Positions 26,946 through 31,282 of a stretch of DNA of 64,000 bases are shown in pieces. A program made the translations under genes and the position numbers. Under the pieces are notes generated by a model. That model ran no database searches, had not been told where the DNA came from, and was given only the letters and a program-made list of their open reading frames with translations. Source of the stretch: an uncultured Candidatus Nitrosopumilus sp. (GTDB lineage: Archaea; Thermoproteota; Nitrososphaeria; Nitrososphaerales; Nitrosopumilaceae); contig CATOSM010000001.1 of NCBI GenBank assembly GCA_951812645.1, forward strand, positions 1,405,560 through 1,469,559. Direction: 5' to 3'. Within the stretch, counting starts at the first letter, position 1. Each line of letters starts with the position of its first letter.

Positions 26946-26965
26946 TAATCATGATGAATTCTGTA

Positions 26966-27550
26966 ATGTTTACTGGCATAGTTGAAGGAACTGGAAAGAT
27001 TGAAAAAATCTCAAAAAACACAAAAACTCGAAGTGCTATTCGGATGACTGTAAATCTAGGCAAACATGGAAAAGGATTAAAAATTGGACAAAGTGTCGCT
27101 CTCAACGGCGTCTGTCTTACGGCAGCCAAACTTTCAAAATCTTCCTGTATTTTTGAAATGATTGAAGAGACTACCAAGAAAACTGATCTTGGAAATCTAA
27201 AAGTCGGCGGAATTGTAAATATCGAACGTAGTTTAAGAGCAGGTGATCGACTTGAAGGACATTTTGTTTTAGGCCACGTTGATGGAGTTGCCACCATTAA
27301 AAAAATCTCAAAAAAACCTAAAGAAGTGCAAGTATGGCTTGAAGTTCCTAAATCTCTCTCAAAATTTGTAGTGAAGAAGGGGTCGATTGCGCTGGATGGA
27401 ATTAGTCTGACTGTGGCTAATGTCAAAAGCTCTCTTGCATCAGTATCTTTAATCCCGCATACTATTGATACTACAAATTTTCATACCAAGAAAGTAGGCG
27501 ACAAAGTTAATGTTGAAACTGACATTCTCGGAAAATACATCCTGAAATAA
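26966..27550 (+). CDS. ribC: Riboflavin synthase (trimeric alpha type)
   Basis: 194 residues. Converts two 6,7-dimethyl-8-ribityllumazine molecules to riboflavin. The start MFTGIVEGTG is the classic N-terminus. Two duplicated lumazine-binding barrels follow: first with ALNGVCLT and EGHFVLGHVDG, second with ALDGISLTV and HTIDTTNF. This bacterial-type enzyme is not the RibC of methanogens, but it is usual in thaumarchaea as far as I recall. First gene of the cluster; ribB follows after 77 bp with its own TATA-like box. Confidence 0.93.
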   Translation: MFTGIVEGTGKIEKISKNTKTRSAIRMTVNLGKHGKGLKIGQSVALNGVCLTAAKLSKSSCIFEMIEETTKKTDLGNLKVGGIVNIERSLRAGDRLEGHFVLGHVDGVATIKKISKKPKEVQVWLEVPKSLSKFVVKKGSIALDGISLTVANVKSSLASVSLIPHTIDTTNFHTKKVGDKVNVETDILGKYILK

Positions 27551-27627: not shown

Positions 27628-28293
27628 ATGTCGCTTGATTCTGCATTACAATCGCTGAAACATGGAGAATTTGTTTTATTGTTTGATTCAGCTGGTAGAG
27701 AAAATGAAATTGATATGGTTGTTGCAGCAGAATCCGTAACTCCCGAACACGTTGCAAGAATGCGTCAACATGCAGGTGGATTACTATGTGTTGCAATGGA
27801 GCACAATTTTGCGACTTCCCTTGACTTACAATACATGCATGAAATTCTCGCCGAGTCTCCAATGCCTAATAAAGAAATGATTATGGGATCGGCCCCCTAT
27901 GGTGACCATCCAACTTTTTCCTTATCTGTAAATCACTATCAAACTTATACTGGAATTACCGACAAGGACAGGGCATTAACAATTAGCGAAATGGCCAAAG
28001 TCTACAACGTTGAAAATAAACAAAAAAAGTTTGCCTCTTCTTTTAAAACCCCTGGACATGTTCCCCTACTGATTGCCTCAAAGGGTTTGTTAGCTGCCAG
28101 GCAGGGCCACACAGAAATGTCCGTTTATCTATCCCAAATCGCAGGCCTAACTCCCGTCACGGCAATATGTGAGATGATGGATGCTGAGACTTACACAGCG
28201 TTATCTGTAGATAAAGCTGGAAAATTTGCAAAACAAAATGGCATTCCATTAATTGATGGACAAGAGCTTTTAGAATACGCCAAGGTGAATTAA
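27628..28293 (+). CDS. ribB: 3,4-dihydroxy-2-butanone 4-phosphate synthase
   Basis: 221 residues, a stand-alone RibB without the RibA domain. Makes the four-carbon unit of riboflavin from ribulose 5-phosphate. Motifs: GEFVLLFDSAGRENEIDMV (Mg and substrate loop), HAGGLLCVAM, TYTGITDKDRALT, and GHVPLLIA...GHTEMSVYLSQIAGL. TTTATAAT lies about 27 bp upstream of the ATG. Its 3' end contains AAGGTGA, which serves as ribosome-binding site for ribH. Confidence 0.95.
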   Translation: MSLDSALQSLKHGEFVLLFDSAGRENEIDMVVAAESVTPEHVARMRQHAGGLLCVAMEHNFATSLDLQYMHEILAESPMPNKEMIMGSAPYGDHPTFSLSVNHYQTYTGITDKDRALTISEMAKVYNVENKQKKFASSFKTPGHVPLLIASKGLLAARQGHTEMSVYLSQIAGLTPVTAICEMMDAETYTALSVDKAGKFAKQNGIPLIDGQELLEYAKVN

Positions 28294-28295
28294 CT

Positions 28296-28712
28296 CTGAA
28301 TATTGCAATAGTAGTCTCGGAATTTAATGGGGATGTGACATCCAGAATGCTTGCTATATCCAAAGAAAAATCAGAATTAATGAAATTAAAGATTTCCCAT
28401 ACCTGTACGGCTCCAGGTGCATATGACATGCCCATAATTGTCGATTCATTACTGAAAAGGGATGACGTTGACGCCGTAGTCACACTGGGTGCTATCATTA
28501 AGGGACAAACCAAACATGATGAAGTGATCTCCCATGCAGCAGCTCGTACTCTTACCGATTTATCTCTAAAATACCAAAAACCGGTATCTTTGGGGGTTTC
28601 TGGTCCCGGAATGCAGGAAAGACATGCTTATGCTAGAATTAGACCTGTTGCAGAACGTGCAGTAGAGGCCGTTGTAAAAATGTCTGATGAGCTAAAAAGG
28701 ATACAAAAATGA
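28296..28712 (+). CDS. ribH: 6,7-dimethyl-8-ribityllumazine synthase (CTG start)
   Basis: 138 residues. Condenses the ribB product with the diaminouracil to lumazine. Conserved parts: NIAIVVSEFNGDVTSRML, PGAYDMP, TLGAIIKGQTKHDEVIS, and GVSGPGM. The family-conserved N-terminus (IAIVVSEFN) lies upstream of any ATG, GTG or TTG in this frame. The only plausible initiation codon is CTG at 28296, two bases after the ribB stop and about eight bases after AAGGTGA. The length with this start equals that of archaeal homologues. The ATGA at 28709 overlaps the next gene. Confidence 0.9.
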   Translation: MNIAIVVSEFNGDVTSRMLAISKEKSELMKLKISHTCTAPGAYDMPIIVDSLLKRDDVDAVVTLGAIIKGQTKHDEVISHAAARTLTDLSLKYQKPVSLGVSGPGMQERHAYARIRPVAERAVEAVVKMSDELKRIQK

Positions 28713-29461
28713 TTCAACTCAGCATTCTAAAAATTACACAATACGGTCCATGGACGCTGACTCTTGGCAGTGATAGAGAACATGAACTACAGATGCTTCA
28801 GGCGTCACTCTACAAAGAAATCCACAAATTATTTTCCGAAAAAAACTGCATGGTATTTCTAAACAGGGCAGATGAATTTTTTGTGGTCTCAAACGGTTTG
28901 AACTTGGATGATCATATCCAAATTCAAAAGTCACTTGAAAAATCATTCGACGTTGGCTTGACAGCGTCTATTGGATATGGGGATTCTCCGTTTGAAGCAA
29001 ATTTGAAGGCACATGAAGGAAAGCAAAATAATGTCATTTTAGATAAAGAGCACGATGTTTTCGGTTCTGTTTATTCCGAATCTGATTCACAAGTTTCAAT
29101 GATGCATTTAGACGTAGATGATCTTGCATCAACGAGAAAGACAAACTCTCCATATGAAATCTCAGCAATAATTTTTGAGTTGTATTCAAAAATGTCTAAA
29201 TTCTTCTTGGAAAAAAAATCCCTTACATTTTTTATGGGCGGTGACAATTTTATGGTAGTGGCAAACGAAGATGCAAAAAAATCCGTCCAAGATTTTATTA
29301 TTATGATAAAAGACAATGATAAGATTACATTGAATTGTGGGATTGGCAACGCCTCTAACGGCAGGGGCGCAGCAAAATTAGCCACGAAATCCCTTGATAC
29401 TATACGTCAAATCCGAGATTCGGGCAAAGAAAAGCCTGAAGTTTATGAATTGTCATGCTGA
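28709..29461 (+). CDS. arfA: GTP cyclohydrolase III (ArfA)
   Basis: 250 residues. Archaeal enzyme that opens GTP to the formylamino-pyrimidine, the first step of riboflavin and F420 synthesis. Recognised from the N-terminus ILKITQYGPWT, the FLNRADEFFVVSNG segment, and the second half with MHLDVDD and FFMGGDNFMVVAN, the duplicated ferredoxin-like cyclase-type fold with metal-binding Asp. Overlaps ribH by ATGA and the amidohydrolase by 7 bp, so the operon is tight. Confidence 0.9.
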   Translation: MIQLSILKITQYGPWTLTLGSDREHELQMLQASLYKEIHKLFSEKNCMVFLNRADEFFVVSNGLNLDDHIQIQKSLEKSFDVGLTASIGYGDSPFEANLKAHEGKQNNVILDKEHDVFGSVYSESDSQVSMMHLDVDDLASTRKTNSPYEISAIIFELYSKMSKFFLEKKSLTFFMGGDNFMVVANEDAKKSVQDFIIMIKDNDKITLNCGIGNASNGRGAAKLATKSLDTIRQIRDSGKEKPEVYELSC

Positions 29462-30639
29462 TTAAAAATATCAGTATACTATCTGGTGATGACTTAGAGT
29501 ATGTCCCAAACACTGATATCCAAATTAGGAATAACCGATTCAAAAAAATCCAGCCCAACATTGAATCCAAAGAGGAATCCGCCGATTGTGAAGGACTACT
29601 GATGATACCTGGATTCATTAACTCTCATACACACATTGGCGATTCTATAGGAAAGGATATTTCTCTAAACGGAACAGTTGATGAAAAAATCCATCCCGTA
29701 TTTGGTGCCAAATCAAAAATTCTAAAAAACACTTCAAATGAACATTTGGGAAATTTTATGAAAAACACATGTCATTCAATGCTTAGAAAAGGGATTACAA
29801 CTTTTGTTGATTTTCGAGAGGGTGGATTAGAGGGAGCAGTCCTATTGAAAAAAATCCTAAAGGATGTTCCCATTCGATCAATTGTTTTAGGACGTATGGA
29901 ATTCTACCATGATGCCAAAGACATCAAAAGAAATTCCCCATTTCCAAGCTTGGATTCTTCCAAATTATCCACGTTACTCCAAAAATGTGATGGGATTGGA
30001 GTTAGCGGCGCAAATGAGAACAGTACATCCGTTTTGAATCATTATTCAAAGACATCCAAGATTAGAGCAATTCATTCTGCTGAGACCAAAGAAAGCACTA
30101 GCAAATCAAAAAAGATCACTGGAAAGTCTGAAACAATTAGGGCGCTATCCATGAAACCCGATTTTTTGGTTCATATGACTTATGCTTCAAAATCTGATCT
30201 TCAAATGGCATCTAGGAAAACGCGTGGAATTGTAATCTGTCCCAGAGCTAATTCGTCTCTTGCAGAAGGAATCCCTGACATTAAATTGATGCAAGAGTCT
30301 GGTTGTCTGCTAGCCCTAGGCACGGATAACGTCATGATAAATTCCCCTGACATGTTTAGAGAAATGGACTTCATTTGGAAAGTCTCTATGGGATTACACA
30401 AAACAAGAATTGACGCAAAAGAAATTCTCAAAATGGCCACCGTGAACGGTGGAAAAATTTTAAATAAAGAAATTGGCAGTATTCAATCTGGAAAAATCGC
30501 CGATTGCATATTTTTGGATAAACATGCGTTAGATTTAGAACCCATGCATGATCCACATGCGTCAATCGTTCACAGGGCATCCGAATCTGCAATAAAGGCC
30601 GTAATGACTGGAGGAAAGACAATACATGGCAAACTCTAG
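29455..30639 (+). CDS. Metal-dependent amidohydrolase inside the riboflavin operon
   Basis: 394 residues. Amidohydrolase superfamily barrel with PGFINSHTHIGDS (HxH metal pair), RAIHSAET and LVHMTYAS (the later histidines), and LALGTDNVMINSPDMF with the catalytic Asp, then the C-terminal beta sandwich (SGKIADCIFLD). It overlaps arfA by 7 bp and the reductase gene arfC by 14 bp. No ArfB (formamide hydrolase of the creatininase family) is visible in the cluster. Deformylating the ArfA product is chemically within reach of an amidohydrolase. Inference only; guanine or cytosine deaminase-like activity is the alternative. Confidence 0.75.
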   Translation: MLIKNISILSGDDLEYVPNTDIQIRNNRFKKIQPNIESKEESADCEGLLMIPGFINSHTHIGDSIGKDISLNGTVDEKIHPVFGAKSKILKNTSNEHLGNFMKNTCHSMLRKGITTFVDFREGGLEGAVLLKKILKDVPIRSIVLGRMEFYHDAKDIKRNSPFPSLDSSKLSTLLQKCDGIGVSGANENSTSVLNHYSKTSKIRAIHSAETKESTSKSKKITGKSETIRALSMKPDFLVHMTYASKSDLQMASRKTRGIVICPRANSSLAEGIPDIKLMQESGCLLALGTDNVMINSPDMFREMDFIWKVSMGLHKTRIDAKEILKMATVNGGKILNKEIGSIQSGKIADCIFLDKHALDLEPMHDPHASIVHRASESAIKAVMTGGKTIHGKL

Positions 30640-31282
30640 GCCTCGTGTTGTTCTAAGTGCGGCAGTATCCGTTGATGGGAAAATTTCCACTAGAGCGGGG
30701 GATTCAAAGCTTTCTTCCACCAGTGATCTTCATAGATTGCACAAGCTACGAACAAAAGTTGATGGAATTTTGATTGGAAAAAATACACTGATGTCAGATG
30801 ATCCTTTATTAACAGTACGACATACTAAAGGGAAAAACCCTGTTAGAATAATACTGGATTCCAAAGGTGAAATATCCGCCCATTCGAAAATACTACAAAC
30901 GTCGAACAAAATACCCACAATCATCGCCGTGTCTAAATCAGCCAGCAAATCCAATCTACAAAAATTAGATAAATTCCCTGTTGAGGTAATCGTTTCTGGA
31001 GAAAAGAATACAAACATCAGATCATTATTGAAAAAACTTTTTGAAAAAAAAATTAGGACTCTATTGGTAGAAGGTGGCGGTACTGTTAATTGGGAATTTG
31101 TAAGACAAAACCTCTTTGACGAACTAATCATTACACTATCTCCATTTTTGCTAGGCGGGGATAATTCGATTTCTTTTATTCAAGGCGTAGGATTTGACAA
31201 AATAACAAAATCTCCTAATCTGCGACTTAAATCTGCCAAGAGGCTCAAAAATCATCTTGTCTTGAATTATCAAAAAGTGTAA
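30626..31282 (+). CDS. arfC: 2,5-diamino-6-ribosylamino-pyrimidinone phosphate reductase
   Basis: 218 residues. RibD C-terminal/dihydrofolate-reductase-like fold: VVLSAAVSVDGKIST at the start, DGILIGKNTLMSDDPLLTVR, NPVRIILDS, and LLVEGGGTVNWEF. It reduces the ribosyl side chain to ribityl with NAD(P)H in archaea and fungi. Starts inside the amidohydrolase gene. Last gene of the riboflavin operon. Confidence 0.9.
   Translation: MANSRPRVVLSAAVSVDGKISTRAGDSKLSSTSDLHRLHKLRTKVDGILIGKNTLMSDDPLLTVRHTKGKNPVRIILDSKGEISAHSKILQTSNKIPTIIAVSKSASKSNLQKLDKFPVEVIVSGEKNTNIRSLLKKLFEKKIRTLLVEGGGTVNWEFVRQNLFDELIITLSPFLLGGDNSISFIQGVGFDKITKSPNLRLKSAKRLKNHLVLNYQKV

Follow-up and report, generated by a model that had tools for sequence, protein, structure and literature searches.

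Which reaction is catalyzed by the metal-dependent amidohydrolase that is encoded between ArfA and ArfC in archaeal riboflavin gene clusters? The question is raised by a locus in a 64,000-nucleotide stretch of DNA from an uncultured Candidatus Nitrosopumilus sp. (hereafter the window), where the position of the gene invites its assignment to the ArfB step, i.e., the hydrolysis of the formamide that is formed by ArfA. This assignment was proposed in an earlier note on the window, and it is examined here by comparison of protein families, catalytic residues and gene neighbourhoods.

The riboflavin gene cluster

As the earlier note had stated, the cluster encodes ArfA, ArfC, RibB, RibH and riboflavin synthase (Table 1), each of them borne out by NCBIfam or Pfam profiles, and the amidohydrolase gene indeed occupies the slot between ArfA and ArfC and overlaps both, the former by 7 bp and the latter by 14 bp. 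Its reading frame starts with ATG and encodes 394 amino acids. The description of the cluster as one overlapping operon applies to ribH-arfA-amidohydrolase-arfC only and not to ribE and ribB, which lie 77 bp apart. The start of ribH is likely a CTG codon (window position 28296), since this triplet stands where the ribH genes of relatives start with TTG or ATG (20 loci compared) and since a start at 28335, upstream of which there is no ATG, GTG or TTG, would remove the conserved NIAIVVSEFN motif.

Table 1. Genes of the riboflavin cluster, in window coordinates.
Feature	Position	Strand	Evidence
Riboflavin synthase, ribE type, two lumazine-binding domains	26951..27550	+	NF006767 (222 bits), PF00677
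ribB	27628..28293	+	TIGR00506 (216 bits), PF00926
ribH, lumazine synthase	28296..28712 (start approximate)	+	TIGR00114 (107 bits); start compared in 20 loci
arfA, GTP cyclohydrolase III; product, 5-formylamino pyrimidine nucleotide	28709..29461	+	PF05165 (152 bits); closest solved structure 2QV6 (GTP cyclohydrolase III)
Amidohydrolase, ATZ/TRZ deaminase group, NF005552; proposed 2,5-diamino-6-ribitylamino-4(3H)-pyrimidinone 5'-phosphate deaminase	29455..30639	+	Profiles, residues, tree
arfC	30626..31282	+	TIGR01508 (192 bits, over cut-off), PF01872; match to 2AZN

Family and catalytic residues of the amidohydrolase

The protein matches Pfam PF01979 with 127.8 bits, and PF07969 is also matched. 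Over its full length (residues 1-385, model positions 2-377 of 382) it exceeds the curated cut-off of NCBIfam NF005552, "PRK07213 chlorohydrolase" (323.8 bits, cut-off 294), an archaeal family of COG0402 type with which it shares a clade as well as catalytic and family-specific residues. The name chlorohydrolase is misleading and is backed by no gene context. Most of the named profiles that neighbour it describe deaminases, namely of guanine, deoxyadenosine/SAH or 8-oxoguanine. In the Pfam scan there was no match to PF02633 (creatininase), and NF033501 (ArfB) was not among the 25 NCBIfam families listed for the protein. Relatives of the amidohydrolase were not found in viral contigs, and from an AlphaFold2 model, which was built from a three-row alignment and reached a mean pLDDT of 34.6, no structural support was drawn.

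The HxH/H/H/D motifs that had been noted as complete are intact (H58/H60, H207, H240, D291), and to this list has to be added E210, the glutamate of an HxxE motif, so that the protein carries the ATZ/TRZ-type catalytic set HxH + H + HxxE + H + D. In enzymes of this type the HxxE glutamate hands a proton to the ring. The set, HxxE included, is invariant in the alignment, being present in 27 of 27 family members, in all seven orthologues of family f21 and in all 13 paralogues. The likeness to ATZ/TRZ deaminases such as guanine deaminase, 5'-deoxyadenosine/SAH deaminase, 8-oxoguanine deaminase and TM0936 thus consists of profile similarity and of the HxH, H, HxxE, H, N, D set, whereas the window family forms a separate clade with invariants of its own (D63, K86, E122, R147, R264, N292 and R374) that are missing from the 13 paralogues; in the f21 orthologues R147 is replaced by Glu. 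In the tree, the window protein and those of Methanocaldococcus/Methanothermococcus type stand together on one side of a branch with 100/99 support, away from other ATZ/TRZ paralogues.

Conservation of the gene neighbourhood

In every locus examined from the order of the window's genome the amidohydrolase gene lies between ArfA and ArfC, and in 30 related loci (L002-L031) the three genes are consecutive, some 1 kb separating the amidohydrolase gene from ArfC in L004; the arrangement, being kept in all of these, is not due to chance. Linkage of the gene to ArfA, ArfC or CofGH holds across lineages. In family f10 it is part of an FO-type operon, CofG-CofH-ArfA-amidohydrolase-ArfC (L102-L106), and in family f30 the order RibH-ArfA-amidohydrolase is found (L139, L142-L144, L146), while other loci contain ArfA-amidohydrolase (L145), amidohydrolase-ArfC (L141), amidohydrolase-ArfC-CofG (L126) or CofG adjoining the amidohydrolase (L101). 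Conversely, in the three genomes of the window's order that have neither ArfA nor ArfC (G096, G146 and G132), no member of the amidohydrolase family was detected, the searches giving only matches at E about 1e-4 to 1e-3, or none at all. Because it is kept in pathway gene contexts and lost together with ArfA and ArfC, the amidohydrolase is a member of the riboflavin/F420 pathway. The pathway might instead be entered through GTP cyclohydrolase II, but this enzyme was absent from the eight genomes tested.

The three genomes without ArfA, ArfC and the amidohydrolase are rated 95-100% complete, and their relatives otherwise retain the operon; G096 and G146 belong to family f4. Judging by their gene content, all three are probably riboflavin auxotrophs.

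Coexistence with ArfB-type enzymes

The earlier proposal was right in so far as the amidohydrolase is a riboflavin/F420 pathway gene that fills a step without an obvious enzyme, but this is probably not the ArfB step, as orthologues coexist with ArfB-type enzymes. Three genomes of Methanocaldococcus/Methanothermococcus type, one of them Methanocaldococcus sp. SG1, contain NF005552 members (537-574 bits) together with ArfB proteins that exceed the cut-off of NF033501 (336-340 bits). In L099 both kinds of enzyme are encoded in one operon, ArfA-amidohydrolase-ArfC-creatininase-CofG-CofH, and in L149 RibH and a convergent creatininase gene lie beside the amidohydrolase gene. In family f21 the creatininase is part of the ArfA-ArfC cluster (L038, L044, L050, L051) and the amidohydrolase orthologue, with most family-specific residues intact, is encoded elsewhere (L160-L166). 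Finally, 113 genomes were sampled from the window's order; the amidohydrolase was found in 110, of which 108 also contain a creatininase, and the two remaining genomes (G118 and G139) are drafts.

The known enzymes of the ArfB step, ArfB of MJ0116 type (NF033501) and BrbF of S. meliloti (SMc02977), belong to the creatininase family, and for BrbF, deformylation of the ArfA product has been demonstrated in vitro (PMC9478397), in a study where this formamide was made from GTP with recombinant ArfA of M. jannaschii. They resemble the amidohydrolase in pathway and as metal-dependent hydrolases, yet their family is unrelated to it, with no similarity in the scans. Since there are two enzymes for two hydrolytic steps and the creatininase matches the known ArfB family, the amidohydrolase is left for the other step.

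It is very unlikely that in this lineage the amidohydrolase has replaced ArfB and deformylates the ArfA product. Such a replacement would agree with the position of the gene between ArfA and ArfC, with the 101 genomes of the window's phylum in which no member of the strict ArfB model exceeds the cut-off, and with the presence of the amidohydrolase in family f10 and in G012, where no creatininase is detectable; besides, members of the amidohydrolase superfamily can cleave amide C-N bonds. However, orthologues occur together with bona fide ArfB and share operons or genomes with creatininases, the deaminase step would be left empty in genomes without CDA-fold deaminases, and the nearest named relatives are deaminases rather than formamidases. 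On account of the coexistence, identity of the amidohydrolase with ArfB is not the best reading.

The creatininase-family protein

ArfB was said to be absent, and this is correct within the window; genome-wide, a single creatininase-family (ArfB-fold) gene is present (contig C1, 989237-989881). Its protein contains all creatininase metal ligands (E, H, D, H, E), invariant as E12, H14, D22, H87 and E137 in alignment A1 (L099 numbering). The earlier note named a true ArfB outside the cluster as grounds for refutation; this applies in part, as an ArfB-fold protein is encoded, but it reaches only 33.8 bits against the strict model NF033501, the cut-off of which is 180. The creatininase tree is star-like, and in it the window genome's protein does not group as sister with ArfB-type proteins that are known or operon-linked; orthology by this tree was not used as proof. 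A purU-like formyltetrahydrofolate deformylase gene adjoins the only creatininase gene of the genome (L001:587-2184; contig C1, about 988,300-989,960), and the two genes are also side by side in nine further loci of the order, among them that of G132. The creatininase of the order may have another or an additional job, since G132 retains it, along with the purU-like neighbour, despite the loss of ArfA, ArfC and the amidohydrolase. These doubts, together with the f10 and G012 genomes described next, bear on which protein is ArfB more than on the argument against the amidohydrolase in that role.

In the f10 genomes searched (all but G038) and in G012, which are drafts (completeness 73-95% where a cluster was mapped), neither Pfam nor a profile with riboflavin-linked members detected a creatininase, and no hydrolase other than the amidohydrolase was seen there for the two steps. 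A second creatininase group is present in family f3, where a broken copy lies divergent to the riboflavin operon (L100:6743-7207) and broken matches occur in G070 and G109; the broken f3 gene is possibly what remains of an operon-linked gene of ArfB type.

The amidohydrolase as a probable pyrimidine deaminase

Once ArfC has acted, a deaminase and a phosphatase are still required. In archaea and fungi, deamination follows reduction (PMC13028884). In RibD and fungal Rib2, for which the proposed reaction class is the same, the deaminase domain has the CDA fold, which is unrelated to the amidohydrolase. CDA-fold/RibD-type deaminases (PF00383) were not found in Methanocaldococcus SG1 (G237) or in the two deep relatives G008 and G012. 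The window's genome contains one intact PF00383 match, which is ComEB/dCMP-deaminase-like, and one broken fragment; a match of similar score persists in G132, which has neither ArfA nor ArfC. An ArfB-type enzyme without a RibD-type deaminase is the state of G237 and G008, and nearly so of the window's order; in f10 and G012 no creatininase was found.

Based on its membership in the ATZ/TRZ group, the invariant E210, the separate clade and the failure to find a RibD-type deaminase in the three genomes named, the amidohydrolase is likely to be the enzyme that deaminates the pyrimidine in archaeal riboflavin and F420 synthesis, acting on 2,5-diamino-6-ribitylamino-4(3H)-pyrimidinone 5'-phosphate in the step after ArfC. 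From the gene, its conserved operon, its residues, its clade and its coexistence with ArfB-type enzymes, all of them observed, we infer the reaction, the step and the roles of single residues, which would be as follows. GTP is opened by ArfA to the formamidopyrimidine nucleotide, the formyl group would be removed by a creatininase-fold enzyme of ArfB type that is encoded elsewhere in the genome, and the ribose is reduced by ArfC. The amidohydrolase would then hydrolyze the exocyclic 2-amino group, yielding 5-amino-6-ribitylaminouracil 5'-phosphate and ammonia, and a phosphatase would act next, followed by RibH and riboflavin synthase or by CofG and CofH. In the active site, one metal ion would be held by H58, H60, H207 and D291 and would activate water, E210 may serve as proton shuttle to a ring nitrogen and H240 may stabilize the tetrahedral intermediate, while the family-specific K86, R147, R264 and R374 are candidates for binding of the phosphate and ribityl groups.

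Two other roles have to be weighed against this deaminase. ATZ/TRZ enzymes are diverse and a reaction is not given by gene position alone, so the protein could have another flavin- or F420-linked function, such as restoring or removing a damaged intermediate, or act as a related purine or pyrimidine deaminase; this is even less probable than a replacement of ArfB, as the gene is absent from the genomes of the order without ArfA and ArfC and a required pathway step would otherwise be without an enzyme. Least probable is a lineage-dependent, bifunctional enzyme, a deaminase everywhere that also hydrolyzes the formamide of the ArfA product where creatininase is missing (f10, G012), which would explain one hydrolase for two hydrolytic steps in the f10 FO operons, but the catalytic residues are identical in lineages with and without creatininase, the f10 genomes are drafts and a third formamidase family could exist.

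Relation to earlier predictions

If the deaminase assignment is true, an ATZ/TRZ-type amidohydrolase, of a fold unrelated to RibD/Rib2, is the deaminase of both the archaeal riboflavin and F420 pathways, a step that, as far as the literature search showed, is apparently still unproven; an assay of this role for MJ0699/HVO_2483 was not found in that search. The ArfA-amidohydrolase-ArfC and CofG-CofH-ArfA-amidohydrolase-ArfC operons provide a concrete enzyme and substrate for testing, and their comparison corrects the mis-step towards ArfB that is invited by gene order alone. The role itself appears to have been predicted already. In Table 6 of PMC8305020, HVO_2483, which is 34% identical to MJ0699, is placed in a row between arfC and the gap of EC 3.1.3.104, with the prediction credited to Rodionova 2017, and HVO_1235 is given as the arfB candidate; the deaminase reaction is read here from the row order of that table. 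The Methanocaldococcus gene of the present comparison does not adjoin arf genes, in contrast to the window gene, and has a divergent neighbour of MscS type. Given this neighbour, and MJ0700, which we take to be MscMJLR, the Methanocaldococcus amidohydrolase is probably MJ0699.
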